Below are positions 31,471 to 51,753 of a DNA stretch of 64,000 nucleotides, one piece after another. The position numbers and the translations under genes are program-made. Position 1 is the first letter of the stretch, and each line of letters begins with the position of its first letter. Below the pieces are notes generated by a model. That model worked only from the letters and a program-made list of their open reading frames with translations, was not told the DNA's origin and did not search any database. This DNA comes from a bacterium. GTDB taxonomy: Bacteria > Zhuqueibacterota > QNDG01 > JAFGCO01. Location: contig JAFGCO010000055.1 of the NCBI GenBank assembly GCA_016932575.1, forward strand, positions 1 to 64,000, given 5' to 3'.

Positions 31471-34400
31471 TTAAAACTCCGCTCCCAGAGTAAAATAATG
31501 CATGGGTTTATTGGAAGTATTATCAATATTTGTGTTCCACGCCGCATCATACCGAATCAGTAAAAATCCCATATTCAACCGGAATCCAAAACCAAAACCG
31601 GCTTTTAAGTCGTTAAGTTTCAAATCACCCATATAGGTCCTTGAAACCGGTTTCCAGGCTTTGTTCACATCCCATGCAGAGCCCAAATCTGTAAACAGGA
31701 CTCCCCGAACGTTTTGAAAACCCAAAGGCAGCGGCCAACCCAGAATGAGATATCGGATAAGAGGAAAGCGAAACTCAACGTTGGCTAACATAAACCGGGT
31801 TCCAATCATCTCATAATAACGAAATCCTCGAAGTGGCGTTTCAAAACTTGAAAAGAAAAACAGTTCTTCCATGCTTAGTTCGGCCACAGAACTGCGATTA
31901 TATTGATAATTAATCCAGTTTGACATTCCGCCAAGGAAAAAGTGCTGCTGATTTTTTCCTCCGGACATGCCGCCCGCCAGACGCAATGCAAATGTGTAGT
32001 CCCGTCCCAGGCGCAAATACCGACGCACATCACCCCGAACAGTCCAGAAATCCAGTCCTGTGGACTCACGAATCAATGGACTGTATGTGAATTGAATGTT
32101 GGACCGTCCTCCATTGATAGGCCCCACCGTCCCCCATAATACTGTATCTGTCGTATATCCCAAATTCATCAAAACCACACGGCGCCTTGAAATCACACCC
32201 AGTTCTTTTTCATATTTCCCGGTCTGCCAGTAAAGAGCCAGTGGATCAATGGCTACACGCTCTTGATCTATACCCAAAAAAGTCACATTCGCGTCCATTC
32301 GTCTGTAACGGTCGAAAGGTCGTGAAGAGGCCAGACTCAATCCATAATTCCGTGTACGTATATATTCATACCTGAGTTCATAACCTCTTTCTGTCAATTC
32401 ATAATAAGAATAATAATAGGGATAGGAAAAATGGAAAACTGCTCCACCAATATCCACCCGTCTCGGCAGATAAAAATAGCCAACCTGAAAATTTGAATTT
32501 TTGAAATTATAAAAAAGATCTGTATAGAGACTGATTTGATGATTTCCAAGCAGATCAGAAAAAACAATCATGGATGAACCCTGTAATCCCCAAAACTGAC
32601 TGTACCCAGCCCCTCCGGTGATTACATCCGGGGTAAATCGTATTTTGTAGTCCTTTGTGATATATTCTCCGTTTTCTTTAAATTCGCTGCTGTCTAAAAA
32701 GGCAGTTTCCGTTTCTGCCTTAGGGTTCACTTCTCCCTTGCGAAACCGGTCGTCAAACACAAAATGTTGAAAACCTAAGCCAGGCGGAGCCATGGATTCT
32801 TCTTTTGGAGTTGCATCCACAGTCGTCTTCTTAATCTCTTCATGTTTCTCCTTTACAAATGCGGTGGCCATAGGCATCACGCTACCGGGCTCAATATCCA
32901 GAGGATGGGTCATCATATAAATATCATATCCACCTTCATAAAAACCTGTAAAGGCCATACGCGATCCGTCCCGCGACCAGGAGAGTTGTGAAATTCCTGT
33001 AACAAGATTAGTAATGGCGTAGGATTCATCCGTGTTTCGATCGAATATATAAATATTATCAATACCACTGCGATCTGATACATAGGCAATTTTATCACCT
33101 TCTGGTGAAAAAACCGGGCTTTTCACATTAACCTGTTCCCGGGTTAATTGATGTATATCTTTATTTTCAATATCGACCACATATAGATCATATTGCCGAT
33201 AATCATGATTTTGTATTTCAAGGTCATCCGGAAGATGATTTAAATAATCTCCCCGGTCACTGACAAATACCAGCTCTCTTCCCGAAGGCGACCAGGTCGG
33301 ATCCATATCACTAAACAAATCATCGGTTAAGCGTTCCAGCCGTTCATCCGATAAACGAAATAGATAAATATCCGATTGTCCACCCTCAAGTCCCATAAAA
33401 GCAAGTATTTCTCCATCATGAGACCAGGAGGGTGAATACATACCGTCCAAGTCAAACTCATACTGTTGAAGAATCTCACGCGTCTTCACATCCAAAATAT
33501 AAAGCACATCCCGTCCTCCACCCTTTGCCGCAAAAACAATACGATCTCCATCCGGAGACCAGTCCATACCGGGCCGCAGCCAATGAAGCTGTTCAAACAG
33601 ATCAGACCTCTGGCCCTTGATTAATTTTCCCATATCTTCATTATCCACAGTCCTCATCAAATGAATATCAATGTAGTCTGATTGGTCTGACAGATAAACC
33701 AGCTTGTCTCCTTTAGGAGAAAGTGAGGGTGATCCATTAAGAAAATGTCTTTTTTTTACATGATCTGTCAATTGCTTTGCAATATCTTCCGGCTCATCCC
33801 GTCCCTGGATATCCGGCCAGTACCTTTTACGCAGATACTTGTGCCATCGCTTTGACAACTCCTCCGTGTCCATGCCCAGAGTTTGTTTTAATCCACGATT
33901 AATGCTTCTTGCCACACGAATTTTTCCTATCATCTCCCCGATCTTGGGACTTCCGTATTTTTCCGCAATATAATTCATCAGGGATTGTCCACCCTTATAT
34001 ACCATGAATCCACTCATATAATCAATGGGTGGCACATATCCATGCAATGTAGCGTCACGCATAAACATATCACTCTTCGTGTCCCATCCCAGGCTTTCAT
34101 ATTCCGCCAATCCTTCCGCCAGCCACAACGGTACTTGAAAACGTGCCATGCCTGTGACCACAGAACCCACACCTCCGCCATAAAATATTTGAAACATCAC
34201 TGCATGGGTTAATTCATGATGAATCACATGACGAAAATCTTCATAACTGCCCTGAAAGGGAATCACTATTCTGTCCTTGAAAACTTCCGTAAATCCCCCA
34301 ACGGATTCTTCAATATGAGAATATGTCACGTTCGTTTGCTGAAACTCATTGTGTGTGTTGTAGATTAATATAGGAATTCGATCTTGGATGTCATGCTTGA

Positions 34401-34638
34401 AATCCCTTTTGAGCGCTACATAGCTGGATTCAGCCACGTCCGCACAAAATGTAGCCAGATGACGGGTTCCTCCGTAATAATATACATCAAAATGTTTGGA
34501 TTGTACATATTTCCAGTCAAATTCCCGATATTGCACTTTGTTTTTACCAAATCCTAAAAGCATAACCGGCAACAGGATCAATTCTATGATGCGCCGCAAT
34601 AGCATTTTTTCGAACTTTGAATGTTCGTTGCCAGACAT
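31471..34638 (-). CDS. Peptidase MA-like / TolB-like propeller / D15 outer-membrane barrel fusion
   Basis: A protein of about 1055 residues, starting at ATG 34638, which has GAGGAG 8 bases upstream. The frame is open nine codons further but without a ribosome site. A hydrophobic leader (IIELILLPVMLLGFG) precedes a gluzincin domain (about 35-280) with HHELTHAV zinc ligands and downstream WLAEGLAEY. A TolB/PD40 propeller (about 290-590) has repeated 'SPSLSPKGDKLVYLSDQSD', 'DWSPDGDRIVFAAKG' and 'SWSRDGSRMAFTG' blades. The last 380 residues form a D15/BamA-like barrel (NVEFRFPLIRYLILGWPLP, ending YFTLGAEF with Phe). It is predicted to be an outer-membrane protein with a periplasmic peptidase-propeller arm. 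The substrate is unknown; roles in envelope biogenesis or protein quality control are inferred. Confidence 0.85.
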   Translation of the reverse strand: MSGNEHSKFEKMLLRRIIELILLPVMLLGFGKNKVQYREFDWKYVQSKHFDVYYYGGTRHLATFCADVAESSYVALKRDFKHDIQDRIPILIYNTHNEFQQTNVTYSHIEESVGGFTEVFKDRIVIPFQGSYEDFRHVIHHELTHAVMFQIFYGGGVGSVVTGMARFQVPLWLAEGLAEYESLGWDTKSDMFMRDATLHGYVPPIDYMSGFMVYKGGQSLMNYIAEKYGSPKIGEMIGKIRVARSINRGLKQTLGMDTEELSKRWHKYLRKRYWPDIQGRDEPEDIAKQLTDHVKKRHFLNGSPSLSPKGDKLVYLSDQSDYIDIHLMRTVDNEDMGKLIKGQRSDLFEQLHWLRPGMDWSPDGDRIVFAAKGGGRDVLYILDVKTREILQQYEFDLDGMYSPSWSHDGEILAFMGLEGGQSDIYLFRLSDERLERLTDDLFSDMDPTWSPSGRELVFVSDRGDYLNHLPDDLEIQNHDYRQYDLYVVDIENKDIHQLTREQVNVKSPVFSPEGDKIAYVSDRSGIDNIYIFDRNTDESYAITNLVTGISQLSWSRDGSRMAFTGFYEGGYDIYMMTHPLDIEPGSVMPMATAFVKEKHEEIKKTTVDATPKEESMAPPGLGFQHFVFDDRFRKGEVNPKAETETAFLDSSEFKENGEYITKDYKIRFTPDVITGGAGYSQFWGLQGSSMIVFSDLLGNHQISLYTDLFYNFKNSNFQVGYFYLPRRVDIGGAVFHFSYPYYYSYYELTERGYELRYEYIRTRNYGLSLASSRPFDRYRRMDANVTFLGIDQERVAIDPLALYWQTGKYEKELGVISRRRVVLMNLGYTTDTVLWGTVGPINGGRSNIQFTYSPLIRESTGLDFWTVRGDVRRYLRLGRDYTFALRLAGGMSGGKNQQHFFLGGMSNWINYQYNRSSVAELSMEELFFFSSFETPLRGFRYYEMIGTRFMLANVEFRFPLIRYLILGWPLPLGFQNVRGVLFTDLGSAWDVNKAWKPVSRTYMGDLKLNDLKAGFGFGFRLNMGFLLIRYDAAWNTNIDNTSNKPMHYFTLGAEF

Positions 34639-34737
34639 GATTTTCGCTCCTCTATTTAAATACATTCAAATCACCCAGTATATCAGATCTTGGAAATAAT
34701 AAAATATTTCCATAGATGCCTTCATATACCTTTTAAA

Positions 34738-39077: not shown

Positions 39078-39725
39078 TTACATGGACTGGGAAATCCGCT
39101 CCCGGTCTTTTTTACTGGTCAAATTCATCTTCCGGAGTATTCTCCAAACAGTTAACTTCCCCACTTTAATACTTCCATGTTCCTCAGAATTCAACTCTTT
39201 TGCAATCTGTGCCGCATTCCAATCCAGATTACTCAAAGCCATCTCTCTTACTTTATCCTCAAGAGCACTCCCGGTGGTTTCTTCTGGAAGTTCAGGGATC
39301 ATGGGCTCATCTTCCAGAATAGACTCCTGCTCATCTTCCGGCTCTTCGACATAAGTACTGACGCCACCCTCACTATCAAAATCACGAATCGCTTGTTCCA
39401 CTGTATCATAGGCTTTTAGAATATAATGAAATTCCAGCAACTCGAATACTTCGTATACATCCGGAATCATTTTCGCCAGTTTAAGATCACCCCCGCGCTC
39501 CCGAATGCCTTTAATCTCACTGATAAAAATTCCCCATCCTGCACTTGAAATATAATCGACATTACCTAAATCAATGATAATTCGAAAAACACCGGCTTTA
39601 AGAAGGGAATCCAGGGCACGTTCAAGCTCCGAGGAAGTAGTTGTATCAATATAGCCACCTACTTTTATTATCGAAATATCACCTTGAAATCCTGACTTCT
39701 CCACGGAAACCTGTATGCCTTCCAT
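39078..39725 (-). CDS. STAS-domain anti-anti-sigma-like protein with C-terminal helix-turn-helix
   Basis: A 215-residue protein. Residues 1-115 are a STAS domain of the SpoIIAA/RsbV type: IIKVGGYIDTTTSSELERAL, then IIDLGNVDYISSAGWGIFISE with the phosphorylatable serine (Ser60 or Ser61). Residues 120-150 are an acidic linker. Residues 156-210 form a helix-turn-helix like those in IS481/IS3-type transposases (DWNAAQIAKELNSEEHG and LTVWRILRKMNLTS). The neighbouring 1156-residue protein carries a matching module, including the words EDK, 'I..ELN[TS]E' and '[YH]G'. STAS proteins normally bind a kinase/anti-sigma factor and are controlled by serine phosphorylation. A fused HTH is not standard. A GGGAG box precedes ATG 39725, and the gene follows its presumed partner by 98 nt. 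Confidence 0.85.
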   Translation of the reverse strand: MEGIQVSVEKSGFQGDISIIKVGGYIDTTTSSELERALDSLLKAGVFRIIIDLGNVDYISSAGWGIFISEIKGIRERGGDLKLAKMIPDVYEVFELLEFHYILKAYDTVEQAIRDFDSEGGVSTYVEEPEDEQESILEDEPMIPELPEETTGSALEDKVREMALSNLDWNAAQIAKELNSEEHGSIKVGKLTVWRILRKMNLTSKKDRERISQSM

Positions 39726-39823
39726 ATGCTTTCTCCCATTATCTCATCTTTACAAGATATTCTATCATAATTTAATAGAATTCTGTGGTTAAGTCAACTT
39801 TTTTTATTTAATCTCAAACCATA

Positions 39824-42800
39824 TTAAACAGAGCGTTGCCGAATCACTTTCTGCATACGTTTAATTCGTTCGATAATATCACGTCGATATGGATGACGCT
39901 TGAGTACTTCCCCCCATCTCCAGACAGCTTTTTTATAATCTCCGCAATTCGCATGAATAACGCCCAGATTTTCCAGAACATCGGTGTTATCCGGATCCAT
40001 TTGCCGTACCTTCTCATAAGTGTCTTTTGCCTTTTCTAATTGACCCAGTCGGAAATAAGCATCTCCAAGACACTGGTAAGCTTCGACAAATTTACCGTTC
40101 ATTTCAATGGCCTTGCTGAATTCCTCTATGGCTTTTGCATATAACTCCTGCCGATAAAACCATTGACCTGATTCAAGATACCTTTGACAATGCAAGTCCT
40201 GAGCAGCTGAGGATGCTTTTTGGGTACGCGCGGCTTCTTCAGCCATTACTGGCACTTGTTCGAAATTCAACAGATTAAATAAATCCTCGAAAGATTTTTC
40301 TTTATCCTGATCGCCACGTCTTTTGCCGGGAACTGATGTGCTTTTCGATCGAATTTCCTCTTCAAAAAGTTCATCCGCCACAGATCCACGAACGCCGGTA
40401 CGATCATCCTCTAAAGACACGGCTTCTGCTTCTGATTCTGTATCTTCAATAATTGAAGAAACATCCGTTTCTTGATAATCTTGTGATTCTGAAATCCCAT
40501 TTACATCCAATAACTGATCAACAAGCTCATTAAACGGACGAACCTCCTCTTCTTCGGACTCTTCATCAAGTTCGGCATTCTGATTGTGTAGGGCCTTATG
40601 AAAATCTATTTTTTTCTTCAAATCATCTTCCGTGAACAGGTCCCGTGACATGTCCTGTTCAGCATCCCTATTCTCCTCATGAATATCCAAAAGATTGATC
40701 GCTTCTTCCATCTCAGACGAAATTGTATCTGATGGTTTAGCATGTTCGAACTTTTCCGGAATATATGATTCATAACTTCGGATTGATTCCATTTTTTTAG
40801 GTTCTTCCTGTTCAACCTCTCCAAAAGATTCAACAGATTCTGTGCCTTCTCCCAACGGGCTGTAGTATTTCGGGCGTTTCACACCTGTGTCCATAATGAC
40901 CTGACCATCCAAACTTAAGAAAGGCGTGCCTGGCGGTTTCATCCGTTTGCCCCTTCCCCCGCGCTCAATAAACGCCAGGCGAAGTTCCTTGGTATTCAGC
41001 CGGCTACGAACCAGCTCATCATAAATACGTTTTTCATCAATCTGAACCTTTCCATATTTTTCCGTGTTCAACTCTTCACTAATTCTTTTAGGCCCGAATT
41101 CCGGATTTTGTTTGATCACATCCAAAATTTTCGCCTTATCTTCGATACTGATATGTCGCTCCTCAATCTCGGAACGCTGTATTTTTTCCTTTAATCCTTC
41201 TGAACCCTGGTCCAGATAAAGTTTGCGATACTTGTAATAGGTCGATGTGGAAACCCCGACCTCACGACAGGTATCTTTCACGCTTCTTCCTTCATCATCC
41301 ACCATCCGCATCAAACGAACACGCATATTATAAAGAACATCTTCTGCACGTAGTCTCTCACGAATAGCGACAAGTGTAATATCATCGTTCTGAGCATACT
41401 CTTCTGTGAAAGTAATAATTTCTTCACGAATATTTTCGACAAGGGGTTTCACCTTTTTATTGCCAAACTTACGGATTGTCGTTAAAAATCGTTCATCACC
41501 AAAACGCTCCCGATTTGGATTCATGGCTTCAGTGATTCCGTCTGTATAGATAATCAGCACATCATCTTCCCTTAATTGCAGTGTGTCGGACTGTATGGAC
41601 CTGCGAAATAATGTACGATCCGGAAGGTTTATGCCGATAGGAAATCCACGAGGATTAAGATAATAGCTTTTCTTGGTTTTACTGCGATAAAGAATCATTG
41701 GATTATGGCCGGCACTTGCATAATTGATGGTTCTATTTTGGGAATCCAGAATAATATAAAAAACCGTGACAAACATACCCCGCTTCATATCATTCATTAC
41801 AAAATCGTTAACACGTGCCAGCACATCCGCCGCGTTTTTATTGCCTCTTGCTTCAGTCCGCAAAGCCGTCCTGATCATTGTCATGACCAACGATCCCGGT
41901 ACACCTTTGCCCGAAACATCGGCCACAACAATACCCAAAGTATCATTGTCCACTTCCACAAAATCAAAGTAGTCACCGCCTACTTCCTTGGCTGCGTCAT
42001 AATAGCTGGCAATTTCGTATCCTTCGATTTCAGGGAACTTGTCCGGCAACAAGGTGTGCTGAATCTCTTGGGCGACCTGCATCTCTTTCTGTAATCGCTC
42101 CTGTTCTGCCAGATTTTCCTGAGACTTCCGAAGCTTATCCGTAATTTCGTTGAAGGCGTGAGCGATTTCACCGATTTCATCTGTAGCATTGAACTCAATG
42201 GCATCCTGAACCTCGCCACGTCCCAAGGCGCGCATCCATAATGTCAACCTTCTGAATGGATTCATTATCAAATAGACAAATCCGAAAACTGCCAGGCAAC
42301 CAATCAACAAAAAGGCGCCATGGGTAATAATAACCAGTGATTTTGCTTTCAATACTTCTTTGTCAATCATTGGCTTATTGAGCAACAGATGTGTGGTCCC
42401 AATCCGGCGATTGACACCCTGAAGCATAACTTCAGCATTCAAATCATAAACCGAAGGGTATTCATTCCATGAGTATACAAACAAATTCTCTTCGATTTTC
42501 TCGATTCCCTCCGGTTGATCATAGTGCTCAAATAAAATCATTTCATCAAGGGCTGCCTGAATCGTACTGGTCGTATCTACAATCAATATATCCAAAACAA
42601 GCGGTTGATGGCTCTGATATACTTCCCTGATCAGCGTGTATAATTCCCAGGTATTTTCTTCACGAAGCAATTCAGGTGATTGAGTAGCCACCATTTCAGT
42701 TAATGCTCTTCCGATTTCCAGATTTTCTTTCCGTATTTTAGATTCCTGACCCCGGTAATCAAAAACAAACAAAGTAACGATAACCAGAAAATAAAGAAGA

Positions 42801-43294
42801 GAGGCCGCTAATGAATAGCGCAACCGCATACTCATACCCATTTCAGGAATCACAAATGGTTGCCGCTTCTTGATGTCACGATATTTGGTCAACCTAAGGA
42901 CATTGCCTTCTTCGGTTTTAAAATAATCAATCTTATCAATCACGCGCCGTATGATAAAAATACCCAAACCACCCTTTTTACCAATGTCCACATAACGTTG
43001 CAGATCCGGATCTTTTACCTTTGTTGGATCGAATGTGTGCCCTTGATCAATTAAAAGGATAGTGACGCTTTTATCACGGATAATCATCCGAACAGTAATA
43101 AATCCTTCCCAGTCCCGATATGCATGCCGGATAATATTGGTTCCAGCCTCGTCGATAGCCAGCTTGAAAGCATTAATCACGCGTTCCGACACACCGTATT
43201 GGCGGCCGACCTCTGTAATAAAATCCCGCAGTTCGCCCAGATACTGAATTTGAGCCGGAACCTTTTTATCAAATTGTTTGGATCGTTTAAACAT
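39824..43294 (-). CDS. Fused partner-switching regulator: RsbW-like kinase, sensor/HAMP, PP2C phosphatase, transposase-type HTH, TPR
   Basis: A 1156-residue protein with at least six parts. Residues 1-140 are an RsbW/SpoIIAB-like HATPase (N-box AIDEAGTNIIRHAY; GKKGGLGIFIIRR). A transmembrane helix (160-178), an extracytoplasmic segment (180-316), a second helix (320-343) and a HAMP (340-395) follow. A PP2C/SpoIIE-RsbU phosphatase spans 400-648, with metal residues in GGDYFDF, ADVSGKGVPGSL, ASAGHNP and NDDITLV. Residues 650-775 are a tandem HTH of IS481/IS3 style (SVKDTCREVGVSTSTYYKYRK, then GPKRISEELNTEKYGK). An acidic low-complexity linker and TPRs (about 1010-1140) close the protein. It probably phosphorylates and dephosphorylates the STAS partner. 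No sigma factor gene is nearby. The start follows the upstream gene by only 17 nt. Confidence 0.88.
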   Translation of the reverse strand: MFKRSKQFDKKVPAQIQYLGELRDFITEVGRQYGVSERVINAFKLAIDEAGTNIIRHAYRDWEGFITVRMIIRDKSVTILLIDQGHTFDPTKVKDPDLQRYVDIGKKGGLGIFIIRRVIDKIDYFKTEEGNVLRLTKYRDIKKRQPFVIPEMGMSMRLRYSLAASLLYFLVIVTLFVFDYRGQESKIRKENLEIGRALTEMVATQSPELLREENTWELYTLIREVYQSHQPLVLDILIVDTTSTIQAALDEMILFEHYDQPEGIEKIEENLFVYSWNEYPSVYDLNAEVMLQGVNRRIGTTHLLLNKPMIDKEVLKAKSLVIITHGAFLLIGCLAVFGFVYLIMNPFRRLTLWMRALGRGEVQDAIEFNATDEIGEIAHAFNEITDKLRKSQENLAEQERLQKEMQVAQEIQHTLLPDKFPEIEGYEIASYYDAAKEVGGDYFDFVEVDNDTLGIVVADVSGKGVPGSLVMTMIRTALRTEARGNKNAADVLARVNDFVMNDMKRGMFVTVFYIILDSQNRTINYASAGHNPMILYRSKTKKSYYLNPRGFPIGINLPDRTLFRRSIQSDTLQLREDDVLIIYTDGITEAMNPNRERFGDERFLTTIRKFGNKKVKPLVENIREEIITFTEEYAQNDDITLVAIRERLRAEDVLYNMRVRLMRMVDDEGRSVKDTCREVGVSTSTYYKYRKLYLDQGSEGLKEKIQRSEIEERHISIEDKAKILDVIKQNPEFGPKRISEELNTEKYGKVQIDEKRIYDELVRSRLNTKELRLAFIERGGRGKRMKPPGTPFLSLDGQVIMDTGVKRPKYYSPLGEGTESVESFGEVEQEEPKKMESIRSYESYIPEKFEHAKPSDTISSEMEEAINLLDIHEENRDAEQDMSRDLFTEDDLKKKIDFHKALHNQNAELDEESEEEEVRPFNELVDQLLDVNGISESQDYQETDVSSIIEDTESEAEAVSLEDDRTGVRGSVADELFEEEIRSKSTSVPGKRRGDQDKEKSFEDLFNLLNFEQVPVMAEEAARTQKASSAAQDLHCQRYLESGQWFYRQELYAKAIEEFSKAIEMNGKFVEAYQCLGDAYFRLGQLEKAKDTYEKVRQMDPDNTDVLENLGVIHANCGDYKKAVWRWGEVLKRHPYRRDIIERIKRMQKVIRQRSV

Positions 43295-43311: not shown

Positions 43312-45234
43312 TTACTCTTGCTCTGATTGTTGAATTTTTCTTTTTACTACATCAATTGATTCAATAATTTTTATATTTTTCGGATCCATTTCCAATGCTT
43401 TCTCCCAGGCAGCCAGGGCTTGATGATATTTTGCTTCACTATACAGTCGCAAGCCCTCAGCAAATTGCTTTTTTACATCACTGCTCATTTCCTTTTTAAC
43501 TCCGATGGAACGCGCGCGAGCACTTCGATATAACTCACGGACTTGTTCATTATTCGGTTGTAATTGCAGGGCCTTTTCCATGAAGTTGGCAGCAGATTTA
43601 TAATTACCTTTTTCATAGTTTTCCCGGCCAAGCTGATAATTATTGATAAAGTTAACCGTATTGTCCAGACGTCGTATTTCAACCATGACTTTATTATGCA
43701 GTCTCTGATTGTTTTCTGTCTGCGTTCTGGCCCGGTCCAATACTCGACGCGCCTGAGCAATATTCTCCTGACGTATGAGGGAATTGGCCTGAGCAATGAG
43801 TCTGTTCACTTCCTTTTCAAGTTCGACCTTGGCTTTCTCAATATAACTTTTAATCTGCTCATTATCCGGATCCCGGCTTAATGCTTCCTCCCATCGCTGA
43901 ATGGCTCTTTGGAAATCAGCTTGATCCAACGCTTGCAGACCTTCTTCATATTTTTCCCGAACAAAGGCCTTATCCCGCCTCTGTGATTCTTCTTCAGCAC
44001 TCTGTTTGCGTAACTCCTGTTCCCGTTCCTGCTGCTGTACCCTTTCTTTGTCTTTTGTCATAGTAAGGTATTTCTGCGCTTCTGTATTATCAGCATCTTC
44101 AGATAGAACACGGCTGAAAGTAAGTCGTGCATTGAAGTAATCATTGTTTTCAAAATATTGCTTCCCCAGTTGAATCCCTTCTTGGATTCGTTTCCTGCGT
44201 TCTGCTTGTTCTCTTTCCTGAACTTGCTGTCTAATCTTTTGTTCTTCCGCTTCCTGAATGGCTCGTTTCTGATCCGGAATACTCTTTCCCAGAAATAGAG
44301 AAAGAGAAAATCGGTGGCTTCGCGGAAAGATCCCGGGGTCACTGGTTGGAGACGAACCGTAATCGATTTGAAATCCTTTCCATCGAAGCCCGCCGCCAAA
44401 AGTAAATTCGCGATGATCCATCCCCATCCTCAGAAAAGCCAATCCCCTCCAATTGAATTCTGTTCCGATGTGATGGGTGGCATCTTTATAAGGATGTTTT
44501 TCAAAATCCCAAAGAATTGCCCAGGCATTGCTGTTTCCAAAGACAAACCTTTTTGCAAAACCTGTTCGATAATACGTTGGCAGGCTTTCTGTTGAAGCTC
44601 CCAATTTCATCCTCGGCCTAATCAAATTTTTAACGTTAAGCCCCCAGTAAAGGTGACGAAAAATCCCCCCTTGAACCGGCGCATGAAAATGAAGTCCAGC
44701 GTCTAAACCAAATCCATTGGTATTATAGGGGCCCAGTTCCTGACGGTTGGCTTCAAAATTCAATCCAATAGAGAGACCGTAAAAAAGATGATGGGCATAA
44801 GCGAGAGAGATTTTTCCTTTCCAGTAATCAAATTCACCCATGTAAACAGGCACATTGTTAATATATTCGTAATTTTGTATATCCGTTAAACCTATACGTG
44901 CAATACCGAAACCAAATGTACCGGCAGTTAATGTTGGATGAATATAACTGATAAAATGATATTGGGTTCCTTCAAAAATTGTGGTTTGTGAAAGCCCGAT
45001 GCATTTTTGATCGATAACCACCATTCCCCCGGGATTCCACAAAAATGCACCCATATTATCTGGATACGCCACAGCAGTACGTCCCATGCTCATATCTTTG
45101 GCGCTAACACCTATGGCATCGAAAAGACTTTCAACACCGGCATCCCCTTCCCGGGTTTCCGCGTACAGCGTTCCGCCAATTAGCAATAACAATAACCAAT
45201 TGAATATTGAACTTTTCATGGCATTCAGCATCAT
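43312..45234 (-). CDS. PorV/PorQ-like outer membrane protein with TPR domain
   Basis: A 640-residue protein. A signal peptide (about residues 1-25) is followed by a PorV/PorQ-like beta-barrel (30-320), opening SLFDAIGVSAKDMSMGRTAVAYPDNMGAFLWNPGG. The barrel ends near SHRFSLSLFLGKSI. A charged coiled-coil stretch (325-415) and TPRs follow (about 420-640, with the characteristic AIQRWEEALSRDPDNEQIKSY and AAWEKALEMDPKNIKI). PorV-type proteins in Bacteroidota carry cargo at the type IX secretion exit. Fusion to a TPR is unusual, and the TPR would lie in the periplasm. The ATG abuts the stop of the giant surface-protein gene (TAAATG), so translation is probably coupled. Confidence 0.85.
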   Translation of the reverse strand: MMLNAMKSSIFNWLLLLLIGGTLYAETREGDAGVESLFDAIGVSAKDMSMGRTAVAYPDNMGAFLWNPGGMVVIDQKCIGLSQTTIFEGTQYHFISYIHPTLTAGTFGFGIARIGLTDIQNYEYINNVPVYMGEFDYWKGKISLAYAHHLFYGLSIGLNFEANRQELGPYNTNGFGLDAGLHFHAPVQGGIFRHLYWGLNVKNLIRPRMKLGASTESLPTYYRTGFAKRFVFGNSNAWAILWDFEKHPYKDATHHIGTEFNWRGLAFLRMGMDHREFTFGGGLRWKGFQIDYGSSPTSDPGIFPRSHRFSLSLFLGKSIPDQKRAIQEAEEQKIRQQVQEREQAERRKRIQEGIQLGKQYFENNDYFNARLTFSRVLSEDADNTEAQKYLTMTKDKERVQQQEREQELRKQSAEEESQRRDKAFVREKYEEGLQALDQADFQRAIQRWEEALSRDPDNEQIKSYIEKAKVELEKEVNRLIAQANSLIRQENIAQARRVLDRARTQTENNQRLHNKVMVEIRRLDNTVNFINNYQLGRENYEKGNYKSAANFMEKALQLQPNNEQVRELYRSARARSIGVKKEMSSDVKKQFAEGLRLYSEAKYHQALAAWEKALEMDPKNIKIIESIDVVKRKIQQSEQE

Positions 45235-48200
45235 TTATTTAACCACGGCAATTTTAAACTTACCTTCAACGCCTGCATCCGTCTGCATAAACAGCCAGTA
45301 AACACCATTCATTACTCTGCGGCCTTTATCATTACACCCATCCCATGTCAGAGTTTGTGGCCCCGACGCAACATCCTTGAGGCTGTATGACCAAACTAGA
45401 TCTCCGACAAGTGTGAAGATCTTAAAATTCACATCACCACTTTCAGATAAATGATAATAAATGGTCGTTTGCTCACTAAAAGGATTGGGACAACTCCATA
45501 AATTTGATTCAGTTTCCGGGTTATAGATATATTTAGCGTCCGACCGCATACTTGCCCATTCTTCTTCGTTCTCCCCAATAACAGGTACTGGATAGGCCGA
45601 CTCGGAATCTTTAGCTGAAATATAGCCGCTGTTTTTCAGATTCAGCCGGAAATATCGCACATTGACTCCTTCTTTAATATCTACAAATATTGACACCTTA
45701 GGATCTCCGTCCACAGATACAAGCAGAAGCCTCGAAAAAAGGACCACGACCGGATTTTCTGACGAAATATCTTCAGCAATGCCAAAAAATTCTTCTGGAT
45801 CTTCCTCATTCACAACACAGGCACGTGAAATAACTGACTGTGGATTGGTAATGGGATTACCGAACCTGTCCTCAATATCAAAACGTAAAGCATCCACTGT
45901 GACCTTATTGCCACCACGAAGACTCTTGTTATCGAATTTTAATGTCATCATTTTCACATTATTCTGACCTGGAACAACAGATGAAGCAGCACCACTTAAT
46001 GAATCCTGAACCACCTTCAGCAGATAACTTTCTGTGTTCACGGCAATGGAATAACTGCCCTGATTCTGTAAAACATGGGCGGGATTATTGGTGTTCTCAT
46101 CCAGGGGCAATTGAAAAAATCGACCCTCGATTTTACTTGCTGAAATACTTGAAATAGAAGGTGCTATAATCTCCCAGGAGACGATACCGTCCTGAACCGG
46201 TTTTTCCAGGACGCCGTCTGGTGTAGAATACCCTCTGGGTAAAGGTCGAATAGACACCATTGCACTTCCCAGTGTATCGGCTTCTCCAGTATTTGTTACA
46301 GTCGCCTGGATTGTAAATACGGATCCCGGCGATAAGCTGCCATCTGCAGCATCAATTGGATCAGTGATTTCCATATAGAGTTTCAGGGCTGCTTTAGAAA
46401 CAGTTGTCACTTCAATAGGCATCACCGGAAAACCGGCGACCGGTACCGATGTTTGAATTGCATCAACACCATACGTGTTGACTTGAATAAGGGCCAAATC
46501 TGATGTAACATTCGGCGCTTGAACCAGCCATGAAACAGTATCCCGCTGGGTTGAAGATTCAAAATTCACAGGTTGACGTAACTGACTGTGCTCGATATAT
46601 CCCTCAGGCAATTGAAGCGTAGCATGAATATCCCGGGCATTTCCCCAGCTGATCATCGCCTGAACCGTAAAAAATTGATCGGTCGAAAGCGTGTCATCCC
46701 TGGCTCCTTCCGGTGAGGCAATTTCAAGACTCGTTGAAATGTAACTGTTGACTGTTGTAATAAAAAACGGTTCTGTGGGATCACTGGAAATTAAAGCCTC
46801 TGAATTGGTGTTCACATCCCTTGGTTTATAATACCAGCTAATCGTAAAAGCCTGGGGAGAAAGTGCATTTGAGGGTGCCCTGATTTGCCAGGTAACACGA
46901 TCATTGGATTTTAAATGCAGTGTATCCGATGAAACCAATGAATACTGCGCAGGGGGATAAACCTTTAAAATACCTGAATTATCGATATCAGCGTCTCCCA
47001 AATTTTGAACCTCAGCCGTAAATGAAAAAATCTGTCCTGTAGAATAGGTATCCAGAGGCGAAGACAATTGTATCTTCAATTCCGCAGGAGATTGAATTAT
47101 CACATTGGCTGTTGAATCAATAGGGGGTCCGGGATTAACAGAATTTCCGGAAAGCCGATAGGCAGCGGATTTAATCATGGAGACAAACTTTTCACCGGAT
47201 AACAGAGGATTTGGAGATGCTGTTAATTGAAATTGTACTGTTGCAGATTTTGATGGGCTCAAAGAAGGAATCCATCGATACACAGAATCCTCAATGGTTG
47301 ACTGTCCATTTTGCGAGAGTCGAACACGCACATTCTCAACTGACTGTCCCAGTCCGTTTTCAACTTTTACAATAATATTAAATGTTTGATTTGTATTCAC
47401 ATAAGCAACATCGGAAACCATGTGGACAGCTTCCACTTTAGTAGATATAATACGCAGTTTCTTTTCCGCAGTTACCGAAATATTTGCTGTTCCTGAAGCA
47501 TTCAACTGCCGAGAGGATTTATTCTCATCGATCCCGGATAATTCTGCCCGGACTATAACATCCCCTCCCTGACGGCCTGTCGCTGTAATTCGATAGGTTA
47601 ACGTGTCTGTCATTCCGCCTCGTAATATCAATCCGCCGCCCGACAGTTGAACAGGCGCAATAACCGTATAATCTTCCTGCAACTGATCATCGATGAAAAA
47701 CCGAATATCTGTTGAATTCGGAGATTGTAATATCAAATTTCCCTGTCCCTGACCAGGATTCGTATTCGGATTCCGTACGACTACCTTCACTTTCCATTCA
47801 TCGACCCGGCCGCCGAGCAATTGTGTCTCAGTCGGCCTGACAGAAACCACTTCAAATTTCGCCGGATTCTGAATCACTACCAGACATGAGTCATCCATCG
47901 GATCAACACTTGCCAGCGGAAATCGTGTATTGTCTGCGATACCGGCACCACTAATCACAATAATTTCAGATTGAGTAGGAACTGATCCTGCAATAATTTC
48001 GGTATTCGCCTCTTTCTGCTGTCCTCCGGAAATATTGCCCAACATCAGCAGGGGAGGTAAAATCGATCCGCCAGCAGACTGAAAGTTCAAACTGGCATCA
48101 ATAATCGCATCTCCACCTGAATTTTCAACCTGGATAGCAATGGGAACTGTTTCTCCTTTATTGACTCTTGGAGAATTTTCTGACATATTATGCACACTGA

Positions 48201-51200
48201 TGATTCGAAATGACGGAGGTTCTTCGATAAGCACGGTTTTCCCTGCCGCAACATTTAAGTTTAAAGTTCGACCCGTATTTAATTCTTCTCCTTCTAAAAA
48301 AGCCTGAATCGGACAATTACCCAGTTCGCCAGTTCCGGTTTGTGCAATAGAATAAAGTAAACTGTCAATCTCTTTACCACCCAAATACCAATCCCCTCCT
48401 GCCATATTTTCTGGCCACCCGATCATCCAATTATTTCCAATGCCAAATGAAATACCCGTTCTGGCAATATCCGAATCCACCAGTATTTCGCTTTCGCCGG
48501 AATTATATACGATTAAAGTAACAAACCAAGGTACCTGTTGTCCCCGTGTCACTTCGTTCCGTGATAACCTGATTTCAGGAATCGACAATACTGCTGGTTT
48601 CTGCACAGTCAGACTGGTCGTTACATCGTTGGGAGATAACGGATTGCCCGTATCCGTATCAACCAGGTAGATGGATCCTTCCAGTGTCATCGGTCCTGAT
48701 GTTTTACCAGTGACATCAACTTTTATTAAAAGCGAATCAATACTTCCTCCGGTCAGTAACGTTGCACCGCCTTCCCAGAATGTTGTCGGATATTGAATTG
48801 TATAATCACTCTGTACAATACCATTCACCTTCAATTCCAACCTGACACTGTCCAGACGCAGTGTAACACTGCCATTATTTTCCACGCCCATCTTGACATA
48901 CCAATCTCGTTCCTGATTGGTAGTAATGGTAGTCAAAATTCTTGTTGTGTCAGCTTGAAGCGTCTGAAATTGGATGATCCGGCTTCCAGGCCCTTCGACA
49001 ACATCGAACAAATTCGATTGTCCGCTCTCGCCTGTGGTTGCCTGCACAGTTAAGCGGTTATTCTGGAAAACCTGTTTCACTGTAATATTACCGATCCAAA
49101 CGCCGCTCTCAAACGGTCCCGGCTGTGTTGGCTGTACTGTTCCCGTCAGATCCGTCAAATGGACACTGCCTGTAAAACTGCTGACCACATTATTACTGGC
49201 ATCCCGGGCAGTCACCCGAATCTGACCCGGTTCGTTTTGAATTTGTGTAGGCACAAAATCAAATGAAAAATGATCAAGATTGCCTGATGCAACTGTCAGG
49301 GTTCCCGTATTGTCAGAAACCGACGCGTTGCTTACAGCTGTCGCAGAAATATCCCCATATCCCGGCGCAGTAGGAACAAAAGAAACATTGGATACATTGG
49401 ATACATTGATTTGGGGCGTCAGCGTTCCTGAACTGCTCCAATCACAGAACTCATCCTGCCTGAAATTTCCATAAAAATCATACCCGGCAGAATAAAACGT
49501 GATACTTTGGCCTGCTATCATCGAGAGTGTCGTTACTTCATTTCCCACACCGCCCCCCGAATCTCGAATTTTCAGCCTGGCCAAATCACCATAAGTCACT
49601 GTGATATTGCCCTTGGTTCGGATTACAGATTCCGCCTGTGCCTGAAGTGACACACCGCTCTCGGCCAGCACCAATATTTGATTGGCCTGGCCTGTTCCAT
49701 AACTCACATATATATCATTGAACACAGGCTGAGCCCCGTTGGATGAGTTGCCTGCTCCTTGGCTTGCAGTAATCGAAACCATACCAGACCAGGCATTATT
49801 GTAGCTGTCATGAGCATTGGTGATATATAGAGGAAATGATTGACCAGCGATTTGTGTATTGGCGCAGGACAGAGTAAAATCTTCAATCTCAGCAGTATTT
49901 ACTAAAATTGCCGCACTTGATTCACTGACATCCGGATTCGGGCCCTCATCGACAACCGTTATAAAAAAGGAACCGGCTGTCCTCAGCTCAAAATTGGAAC
50001 CGGCCAGGGTCACGCTGCCGCTGCTGTAAGGACCAGTATACGGATTTGCGGAATCATAAAATAACTGGGCGTGAGGATCTGAGCTTTCAAAAAAAACGGA
50101 CCCATTATAATTTGTTTTTATATTTCCAAACGCATCATAGGCGATCAGGACAATTCCTGATGAAAAAGCCTCCCCGGCTGTTACAGATGAAGGCTCACCT
50201 GAAAGGTTAAACGCGTATAATGCTCCAGGATTGACCAGCAGGGAAATAGTCTTTCTGATAATACCGCCTGATTGACCTCTCAAAATCGTATTTTCAGTGT
50301 CGGTTAAAATTTGCTGTGAATTACCTGCGCCTTGCGTTACCGAAATGTCATTTAATGACGGCGGCGTTCCATCGGGTGCATTTCCACCGCCTTGACTGGC
50401 ATCCACACTGATTGTTCCTGACCATGGATTATCATAACTGTCCACAGCATTTGTGACATTTAAAGTGAAACTTAGCCCTGCTGTGACTGGTGAACTGGCC
50501 GACAGAGTAAAATCGACCAGGCTCGCATGATAGACAGTAATGGGAGACGTATACCGAACTGTGCCACTGGAAGTGCCCCTAAATTGAGTTGTTACTGCAT
50601 TGGTTAATATAATCCCTGATTCAGATCCCGATCCGTCATTGACTGATATTTGTGCCGGAATTGTAGGTGGATCACCTCCCGGGGAATTTCCACCGCCGCT
50701 GAATACGTCAATGTTTACATTGCCCGTAAAACTGTTACCCCATTCATCCACCGCGTTAGCAACATTTAACGAAAACGCCATGCCCACTGTTTGCGGTGTT
50801 GAACAACTGAGTATGAAGTCTGTTGCAGGACCGGATTCCACATCGATATTTGCAGTCGTATTTGAAATGGAACCATCTTCAACCCGTAAAGTTTGTGTGC
50901 CTTTTGTATAAAAAATAAAGTCTGCAGCACTAAACGTCTTTTGTCCGTATGTCCAACCCGTCCCATCATCTGTAGGGACAGTCGCACTGGGATTTGTATC
51001 TGATGTGTACCAGTCTATACTGCTTGAATAATTAGATTTTCGATTGTTATATTGGTCCCTGGCTGTTACAACAATATCACTCGGGATGGCACTGCCGGCA
51101 TTTGCAGTTGCAGGAACTCCGTAAAAACTGAAATGGTGCAAGGGCCCAGCATAAATAAAATCGGGAACCGATCCATACTCAATCTGCGAGCCACCACTGT

Positions 51201-51621
51201 CTTCAGTCCGTAATGTATAATAATATGAATCGGATTTTGTGGGATTGCAAACAGAAGAAATTTGAATGTTTTCTGGACCCGGAGAAGTCGCTGTACCTCC
51301 TGTCCGTGTCAAAATTACAGTCGACCCGCTCAGAGATATTGTGAAGCTTCCATCCATGGTTGAAGAAGATGCGGAAGTTACACCTGTGAGAATAAAATCC
51401 GGATGATAGACAATGGCTATTCGGCCATCGGCTGGAATGGAAGCAGTGGTTGTAAACTCAAATATATGATAGCCTGCCTGTGCCACAACACGAATCTGCG
51501 GTGTGATCGATAAATCTACCAAATAACCGAATAAAGTGTACGGCAATAAAAATATGATTAAAAAAAACAGTTGCCGCCACAAAGGACAGATCCATTCGAA
51601 TTTTTTTCTGGATGTGCTCAT
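45235..51621 (-). CDS. Giant Ig-like repeat surface protein with FlgD-like sorting domain
   Basis: A 2128-residue exported protein. The signal anchor is LFFLIIFLLPYTLFGY. The body is a chain of Ig-like/invasin-type beta domains. At least three near-copies of a unit with 'TLNVTNAVDSYDNPWSGTI' (also 'SLNVANAVDEWGNSFTGNV' and 'PLYITNAHDSYNNAWSGMV') lie within residues 265-620. Later segments carry long 'alternative beta-sandwich' domains with CARDB-like motifs (NLGDADIDNSGILKV). The C-terminus, with SCPNPFSEQTTIYYHLSESG and ending in KIAVVK, is a FlgD-like type IX sorting domain. It is expected to be a surface adhesin or sheath protein. It precedes the PorV-like gene at the front of the minus-strand run, and an AGGA box lies 7 bases before ATG 51621. 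Confidence 0.85.
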   Translation of the reverse strand: MSTSRKKFEWICPLWRQLFFLIIFLLPYTLFGYLVDLSITPQIRVVAQAGYHIFEFTTTASIPADGRIAIVYHPDFILTGVTSASSSTMDGSFTISLSGSTVILTRTGGTATSPGPENIQISSVCNPTKSDSYYYTLRTEDSGGSQIEYGSVPDFIYAGPLHHFSFYGVPATANAGSAIPSDIVVTARDQYNNRKSNYSSSIDWYTSDTNPSATVPTDDGTGWTYGQKTFSAADFIFYTKGTQTLRVEDGSISNTTANIDVESGPATDFILSCSTPQTVGMAFSLNVANAVDEWGNSFTGNVNIDVFSGGGNSPGGDPPTIPAQISVNDGSGSESGIILTNAVTTQFRGTSSGTVRYTSPITVYHASLVDFTLSASSPVTAGLSFTLNVTNAVDSYDNPWSGTISVDASQGGGNAPDGTPPSLNDISVTQGAGNSQQILTDTENTILRGQSGGIIRKTISLLVNPGALYAFNLSGEPSSVTAGEAFSSGIVLIAYDAFGNIKTNYNGSVFFESSDPHAQLFYDSANPYTGPYSSGSVTLAGSNFELRTAGSFFITVVDEGPNPDVSESSAAILVNTAEIEDFTLSCANTQIAGQSFPLYITNAHDSYNNAWSGMVSITASQGAGNSSNGAQPVFNDIYVSYGTGQANQILVLAESGVSLQAQAESVIRTKGNITVTYGDLARLKIRDSGGGVGNEVTTLSMIAGQSITFYSAGYDFYGNFRQDEFCDWSSSGTLTPQINVSNVSNVSFVPTAPGYGDISATAVSNASVSDNTGTLTVASGNLDHFSFDFVPTQIQNEPGQIRVTARDASNNVVSSFTGSVHLTDLTGTVQPTQPGPFESGVWIGNITVKQVFQNNRLTVQATTGESGQSNLFDVVEGPGSRIIQFQTLQADTTRILTTITTNQERDWYVKMGVENNGSVTLRLDSVRLELKVNGIVQSDYTIQYPTTFWEGGATLLTGGSIDSLLIKVDVTGKTSGPMTLEGSIYLVDTDTGNPLSPNDVTTSLTVQKPAVLSIPEIRLSRNEVTRGQQVPWFVTLIVYNSGESEILVDSDIARTGISFGIGNNWMIGWPENMAGGDWYLGGKEIDSLLYSIAQTGTGELGNCPIQAFLEGEELNTGRTLNLNVAAGKTVLIEEPPSFRIISVHNMSENSPRVNKGETVPIAIQVENSGGDAIIDASLNFQSAGGSILPPLLMLGNISGGQQKEANTEIIAGSVPTQSEIIVISGAGIADNTRFPLASVDPMDDSCLVVIQNPAKFEVVSVRPTETQLLGGRVDEWKVKVVVRNPNTNPGQGQGNLILQSPNSTDIRFFIDDQLQEDYTVIAPVQLSGGGLILRGGMTDTLTYRITATGRQGGDVIVRAELSGIDENKSSRQLNASGTANISVTAEKKLRIISTKVEAVHMVSDVAYVNTNQTFNIIVKVENGLGQSVENVRVRLSQNGQSTIEDSVYRWIPSLSPSKSATVQFQLTASPNPLLSGEKFVSMIKSAAYRLSGNSVNPGPPIDSTANVIIQSPAELKIQLSSPLDTYSTGQIFSFTAEVQNLGDADIDNSGILKVYPPAQYSLVSSDTLHLKSNDRVTWQIRAPSNALSPQAFTISWYYKPRDVNTNSEALISSDPTEPFFITTVNSYISTSLEIASPEGARDDTLSTDQFFTVQAMISWGNARDIHATLQLPEGYIEHSQLRQPVNFESSTQRDTVSWLVQAPNVTSDLALIQVNTYGVDAIQTSVPVAGFPVMPIEVTTVSKAALKLYMEITDPIDAADGSLSPGSVFTIQATVTNTGEADTLGSAMVSIRPLPRGYSTPDGVLEKPVQDGIVSWEIIAPSISSISASKIEGRFFQLPLDENTNNPAHVLQNQGSYSIAVNTESYLLKVVQDSLSGAASSVVPGQNNVKMMTLKFDNKSLRGGNKVTVDALRFDIEDRFGNPITNPQSVISRACVVNEEDPEEFFGIAEDISSENPVVVLFSRLLLVSVDGDPKVSIFVDIKEGVNVRYFRLNLKNSGYISAKDSESAYPVPVIGENEEEWASMRSDAKYIYNPETESNLWSCPNPFSEQTTIYYHLSESGDVNFKIFTLVGDLVWSYSLKDVASGPQTLTWDGCNDKGRRVMNGVYWLFMQTDAGVEGKFKIAVVK

Positions 51622-51753
51622 GTAAATGTCCTGATCATAACCTTTTAGAGATATTCAAATTATATCAGCAAAATGCATACCACAAACCAATTTTCGGAAA
51701 TACTGCATAAATTTTGTTATTTTATCAGCTCGATGACCGATAATTGACCATCC

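Follow-up and report, generated by a model that had tools for sequence, protein, structure and literature searches.

CapK, in which a helix-turn-helix (HTH), a STAS and a kinase domain are joined, phosphorylates CapS, a STAS repressor with a winged HTH, and phosphorylated CapS loses DNA binding (PMC13373217, EMBO J 2026). SypA, a bare STAS protein of the Vibrio fischeri polysaccharide locus, has its effect below transcription (PMC10120452). Here we analyse a locus with features of both systems in a genome assigned to the candidate division KSB1. The window, by which we mean the whole stretch of 64,000 nucleotides (GenBank assembly GCA_016932575.1, contig JAFGCO010000055.1, positions 1 to 64,000), contains a gene for a large protein, BIG, that joins a kinase, a membrane sensor and a phosphatase to two HTHs, and next to it a gene for a STAS-HTH protein, STAS1. 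We propose that BIG, anchored in the membrane, is a bifunctional partner switch whose action on two STAS-HTH regulators, STAS1 and a second protein, STAS2, controls the cell surface and exopolysaccharide, and that no sigma factor of the B/F type is its target; we find the case for and against this proposal evenly balanced. An earlier note, made from the sequence alone, had described the locus as a two-polypeptide system, and both open reading frames (ORFs) and all the domains that it named were confirmed by Pfam, NCBIfam and AlphaFold2 (AF2). The features of the pair are as follows.

39824..43294, minus strand: BIG, a 1156-residue membrane protein with the layout kinase-sensor/HAMP-PP2C-HTH-HTH-TPR (ORF, Pfam, NCBIfam, AF2 model of residues 1-806)
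42884..43258, minus strand: RsbW/SpoIIAB-type kinase domain, BIG residues 13-137 (PF13581, HATPase_c_2, E 2e-26; RsbW 6m36, E 8e-15)
42221..42829, minus strand: membrane sensor, BIG residues 156-358 (AF2 secondary structure; no Pfam family)
42128..42274, minus strand: HAMP, BIG residues 341-389 (PF00672, E 5e-9)
41360..41947, minus strand: PP2C/SpoIIE phosphatase, BIG core residues 450-645 (PF07228, E 2e-50)
41189..41323, minus strand: BIG HTH1, residues 658-702 (PF13384, E 6e-8; IS481 N-terminal region)
40961..41152, minus strand: BIG HTH2, residues 715-778 (hhalign against the STAS1 HTH, E 2.6e-15; HTH-module profile, which includes this sequence, E 1.6e-26)
39893..40141, minus strand: TPRs of BIG, residues ~1052-1134 (PF07719 and related families)
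39078..39725, minus strand: STAS1, a 215-residue STAS-linker-HTH protein (ORF; AF2 model)
39390..39686, minus strand: STAS domain of STAS1, residues 14-112 (PF01740, E 3e-18; structural matches SpoIIAA, RsbV and TM1442)
39543..39545, minus strand: Ser61 codon of STAS1, the predicted phospho-acceptor (alignment to SpoIIAA Ser58; invariant in 47 orthologues)
39084..39275, minus strand: C-terminal HTH of STAS1, residues 151-214 (Pfam, hhalign, NCBIfam, AF2)

According to Pfam, NCBIfam and the AF2 model, BIG runs from the kinase (13-137) through a transmembrane (TM)-sensor-TM region (~156-358), HAMP (341-389), PP2C (~395-645), HTH1 (658-702) and HTH2 (715-778) into a poorly conserved linker and the TPRs, whose Pfam matches span ~1040-1134. 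The kinase has the catalytic Glu/Asn and the ATP-binding boxes of GHKL serine kinases (PF13581; RsbW alignment), and residues E49, N53, D83, G85, G108, G109 and G111 are invariant among 60 BIG sequences. The phosphatase carries the metal-binding Asp residues of SpoIIE/RsbU-type PP2C proteins, and D441, D459, D585 and D638 are likewise invariant in these sequences. Because the catalytic and metal-binding residues are conserved, kinase and phosphatase look to be both intact within one chain, which bears out the fusion postulated earlier. The closest structural matches of BIG are SiaA-PP2C, the best for the phosphatase, Rv1364c (3ke6) and RsbW, with 3ke6 the top match by sequence and by structure. 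No Pfam match was obtained for the sensor region, which AF2 modelled as helix (156-205), strand (233-306) and helix (307-358), with a predicted local distance difference test (pLDDT) score of ~90 up to residue 340. The model suggests a TM helix, an extracytoplasmic helix-plus-sheet domain and a second TM helix, Cache-like by topology only. HAMP was present in all 15 BIG orthologues scanned, and TPR matches in eight of the 15 orthologue stretches, several of which are truncated.

Some genomes hold further or altered copies of BIG. Second homologues of ~1640-1990 residues in G022 and G024-G027 align over residues 2-656 only, from kinase to PP2C, leaving the HTH region unmatched; G072 and G073 each have a second full-length BIG; and at L108:4705-7962 the gene is apparently broken near residue 718 into ORFs of 725 and 360 residues by a frameshift or an assembly error.

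In the AF2 model STAS1 consists of a STAS domain (1-118), a low-confidence linker (127-150, pLDDT <50) and an HTH (151-214, pLDDT ~90-96). The earlier note had suggested a test of phosphorylation at Ser60/61. Both serines are invariant in the 47 orthologues, but it is Ser61 that aligns with SpoIIAA Ser58, a column marked by the S58A entry 1tid, and that opens helix 61-76 of the model, matching the position of a phospho-acceptor serine at the start of helix 2. On the strength of the alignment to SpoIIAA Ser58 we predict that Ser61, and not Ser60, is the acceptor.

The two proteins were also thought to carry homologous HTHs. Profile-profile comparison with hhalign aligned STAS1 150-214 to BIG 640-806 over 60 columns (probability 98.5%, E 2.6e-15), and AF2 predicted the same four-helix HTH in both, in the order 151-165/171-178/190-199/205-214 in STAS1 and 717-729/735-742/754-763/769-778 in BIG. 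The homology therefore stands, but for the second HTH of BIG alone (~715-776): hhalign of the STAS1 HTH against the first HTH, the kinase and the phosphatase segments of BIG gave no match. Pfam assigned HTH_23/HTH_28 to BIG 657-704 and, under its curated cut-off in each case, HTH_32 to BIG 685-758 and to STAS1 150-197 (E 3e-4). The IS481 transposase model of NCBIfam matched BIG 658-772 at positions 2-109 of 284 (E 6.5e-16) and, likewise with its N-terminal region, STAS1 122-210 (E 3.8e-5), both far under the full-family cut-off, as expected of proteins without the catalytic domain; the DDE domain has no counterpart in BIG, which aligns to model positions 2-109 alone. Sequence searches of the PDB with the HTH returned chance matches only. 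In BIG, then, both parts of the bipartite DNA-binding end of an IS481-like transposase are represented, and in STAS1 the second part. So plain a derivation from an IS481-type N-terminal region might mean that the HTHs are functionless leftovers of a transposase fusion. We consider this very improbable: in two phyla the HTHs of BIG, STAS1 and STAS2 have been retained and include invariant positions, and they stay conserved while the linker beyond BIG residue ~805 diverges in many orthologues.

The pair is widespread. STAS-family matches to STAS1 were found in 82/82 KSB1 genomes, although some of the lower ones cover no more than the STAS domain, and 76 of the 82 have BIG (E<1e-60); the pair is also present in Calditrichota. 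Of the 80 named KSB1 and Calditrichota loci, gathered with a STAS alignment (a BIG-only search of the genome contigs returned none), 75 have BIG directly 5' of STAS1 and on its strand, so that STAS1 is not usually partnerless. Three of the five other loci begin <=320 bp from a contig edge, and the remaining two (L090 and L096) belong to one genus in which the genes are apart. BIG-STAS1 is a real conserved gene unit, phylum-wide.

With STAS2 left out of its construction, the HTH-module profile gave exactly three matches in the source genome, namely BIG, STAS1 and STAS2 (E 4.6e-15 for STAS2), and nothing further at E<=1. The module occurs three times in 55/82 KSB1 genomes, the rest having 0-2 or 4-5 copies, and in 27/40 Calditrichota genomes. 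STAS2 is the second STAS-HTH protein of the source genome (C46:121648-122319), unlinked to BIG-STAS1. Its gene stands beside wza, within a conserved cluster of exopolysaccharide genes, in all 28 loci examined. The order (glgA)-STAS2-wza-wzc-epimerase-polyprenyl sugar transferase is fixed in 20/20 KSB1 loci (glgA is unmatched in two, and the contig stops after wzc in one), and in Calditrichota wza comes next after STAS2 in 8/8 loci, seven of which have a sugar-transferase homologue upstream; the identities of these neighbours were confirmed by Pfam/NCBIfam. The C-terminal end of STAS2 is a conserved K-x-R-x-R-[FY]-[YH]-R-S, with few departures. Recent acquisition of the system, or carriage on a mobile element, is rejected on account of the phylum-wide pair and the conserved STAS2 gene order.

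Two side observations concern these sequences. At L008:6640-7320 a STAS2-HTH gene in an exopolysaccharide operon encodes an extreme C-terminus, KRYR[FY]YRS, that is kept across two phyla. Weak additional matches to the HTH module lie in other ORFs, at G097:C130:23883-24038 (E 5e-4) and G104:C14:2145-2312 (E 3e-5), which are possibly IS481-type transposases.

The conserved unit extends upstream of BIG. Its upstream half, found in KSB1 and Calditrichota, comprises a PorV/TPR barrel and a 2128-residue protein (window 43312-51621) that carries CARDB (PF07705) and a FlgD-Ig/type IX secretion (T9SS)-like C-terminus (PF13860).

43312..45234, minus strand: PorV-family outer-membrane barrel with C-terminal TPRs, adjoining BIG (NF033709, E 4e-27, above cut-off)
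45235..51621, minus strand: giant 2128-residue predicted surface protein, first gene of the unit (PF07705, PF13860)
51667..51682, minus strand: sigma54-like promoter TGGTATGCATTTTGCT, its first base 61 nt 5' of the ATG of the giant gene (pattern scan)

A PorV homologue precedes BIG in 53 of the 55 loci with >1.2 kb of sequence upstream of BIG, and the giant gene precedes PorV in 46/51 testable loci. In many loci BIG overlaps the upstream gene or begins a few bases past its end, an arrangement consistent with one transcript. The description as a two-polypeptide system was therefore too narrow: the two STAS-HTH regulators and the two upstream surface genes belong together with BIG.

During a search for a shared HTH target motif, sigma54-like sites surfaced by chance 5' of the giant gene and between STAS2 and wza (G000:C46:121550-121565). 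The source genome has an rpoN gene and 40 sites of the pattern TGGYRYN5TTGCW, as against 13 with a reversed control. Within the taxonomic order to which the source genome belongs, all testable genomes have a sigma54-like site 5' of the giant gene (5/5; three with the strict pattern, the rest with a looser one) and 5' of wza (9/9; six strict, the rest looser), against a chance expectation of 0.013 per 330 bp; the pattern was picked after two sites had been seen, so this test is not blind. We read these sites as a sign that the giant-gene and wza gene sets may be co-regulated in this taxonomic order only. Several other sigma54-like sites of the source genome precede genes with signal-peptide-like starts, which suggests a sigma54 surface regulon.

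Taken as a partner switch, BIG would work as follows. The extracytoplasmic sensor and HAMP would set the balance between kinase and PP2C phosphatase, both of which would act on Ser61 of STAS1 and on the equivalent serine of STAS2. The STAS-HTH proteins themselves would be the output, their phosphorylation state deciding whether they are held by BIG or free. When free, they would work by way of their basic HTH, which derives from a transposase and would most likely engage DNA; they would then be phospho-controlled regulators resembling CapS, with the exopolysaccharide operon containing STAS2 and the surface-protein/PorV/BIG/STAS1 unit as their targets. As for the HTHs of BIG, they may recognise that DNA too, or else recruit the STAS-HTH substrates. 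Catalysis by BIG, the direction of the switch, DNA binding and the input signal are all things that we infer, and we lean towards DNA binding by the STAS proteins, with the HTH of BIG possibly serving in docking.

Several findings weigh against this proposal. HTH2 of BIG is near-neutral (+1.9), and its presumed recognition helix contains an invariant Tyr-x-Glu-Leu (Y758-x-E760-L761, with Glu in 59/60), a combination that resembles a protein-contact surface more than one for reading DNA. No DNA motif common to the regions 5' of the giant, STAS2 and glgA genes was seen by eye, and no HTH target was found in this way. Outside the taxonomic order of the source genome, sigma54-like sites occur in only 2/24 loci. 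That STAS2 is a substrate of BIG is something we infer from the common HTH module, paralogy and co-conservation. SypA works below transcription, so that an output on DNA is not obligatory in such systems (PMC10120452).

In an alternative, the HTHs no longer bind DNA: homotypic docking would bring the STAS substrates to BIG, and the output would be post-transcriptional, free STAS2 acting, like SypA, on the neighbouring polysaccharide export/synthesis machinery. That the HTH module is confined to BIG and the two proteins that are its candidate substrates fits this idea, as do the highly constrained, near-neutral helix of BIG HTH2 with its (near-)invariant positions, the place of the STAS2 gene within the exopolysaccharide cluster and the SypA precedent. 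On the other hand, the STAS HTHs are strongly basic (for STAS1, a mean net charge of +6.8 over 151-215) and retain the transposase-type fold; known recognition of STAS domains by PP2C and RsbW proteins needs no added docking module (PMC11418112); and CapS is a STAS-winged-HTH protein that acts as a transcription factor. We regard docking without DNA binding as a real but lesser possibility.

A partner switch acting without a sigma factor, as the earlier note had it, is plausible because no sigma factor of the SigB/F/G type passes its family cut-off in the source genome, which is 94.5% complete; other sigma factors are not excluded by this, and the best match to the SigB/F/G models is a sigma70-type ORF of ~297 residues (115 bits against a cut-off of 234). 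In canonical partner switching the BIG kinase would also bind and inhibit a sigma factor, dephosphorylated STAS1 would free it, and the HTHs would be accessory. In its favour, the kinase domain is clearly homologous to RsbW/SpoIIAB and the STAS domain to RsbV/SpoIIAA. Against it stand the missing SigB/F/G match, which disfavours sigma release, and the conserved unit, in which we noticed no sigma gene; we think this scheme improbable. The source genome also has a conventional partner-switching cluster, with three further PP2C proteins, a bare STAS protein and a free RsbW-like kinase (L009, G000:C22:130000-139650; G000:C22:136935-137318). Elsewhere in the window (31474-34665) lies a gene for a 1064-residue protein that joins a peptidase-MA domain and a PD40/WD40-like propeller to an Omp85 C-terminal barrel.

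More broadly, and rather tentatively, a domesticated transposase DNA-binding module might be the common element of a three-protein, trans-envelope pathway retained in two phyla, which would run from the surface protein and PorV barrel through the membrane kinase-phosphatase to the two STAS-HTH proteins. Such a pathway would sense the cell surface and regulate exopolysaccharide through homotypic contacts between HTHs, through DNA binding gated by phosphorylation, or through both, and would involve no sigma factor. Nearly every KSB1 and Calditrichota member sampled has the BIG-STAS system, and because of this near-universality it is likely to be a core regulator in these two poorly studied phyla. 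It connects an unexplained surface-protein/PorV unit with an exopolysaccharide cluster, and adds to the few sigma-free partner switches (SypE-SypA, SiaABC and CapK-CapS) a case in which the enzyme and both predicted substrates share a transposase-derived module. Two questions become testable as a result: by what route non-sigma partner switches produce their output, and what guides a kinase/phosphatase to its STAS substrates.

Partner switching, kinase-phosphatase fusion and STAS-HTH substrates are already known as kinds. Like BIG, Rv1364c of Mycobacterium tuberculosis is a phosphatase-kinase fusion; its chain also includes STAS, its PAS sensor is cytoplasmic, its output is sigma-F and, to our knowledge, it has no HTH. 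The earlier note knew of no description of the BIG-STAS1 pair, and a literature search that covered few subscription papers found none of this exact system, but CapK-CapS is a close precedent (PMC13373217) and the fusions SypE and Rv1364c are known. CapK-CapS shares with the system here an RsbW-like kinase with an HTH, a STAS protein with an HTH as its (here predicted) substrate, an adjacent pair of genes and no evident sigma factor. CapK, however, has no phosphatase domain or membrane sensor and has a STAS domain of its own, which BIG does not; the winged HTH of CapS is MarR/ArsR-like, whereas the HTH here is IS481-like; and CapK senses single-stranded DNA and is linked to immune operons. CapK-like anti-phage defence was considered for BIG and rejected, PADLOC giving no meaningful match and the neighbours not being immune genes.

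SypE-SypA (PMC10120452) likewise combines kinase and PP2C in one protein with a STAS substrate and no known sigma target, and its STAS gene lies in a polysaccharide locus, as does that of STAS2 (not STAS1) here; the locus regulator SypG is sigma54-dependent, which may be compared with the sigma54-like sites described above. SypE differs in being a response regulator with the order kinase-REC-PP2C, whereas BIG lacks REC and has a membrane sensor and HAMP between its enzymes, and the SypE-SypA system has a bare STAS protein, no HTHs, no TPRs, no second STAS and no surface-protein genes. In SiaABC(D) of Pseudomonas aeruginosa (PMC7647112), a membrane HAMP-PP2C and a kinase similarly act on a STAS-like protein that controls biofilm, but kinase and phosphatase are separate, SiaC has no HTH and the output is a diguanylate cyclase. 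With IS481 transposases, finally, BIG (658-772) and STAS1 (122-210) share the N-terminal tandem HTH region and not the DDE domain, the region having been domesticated as a module of signalling proteins. What appears new is the combination, with its shared IS481 module, a second STAS protein in an exopolysaccharide cluster and a phylum-wide surface context.

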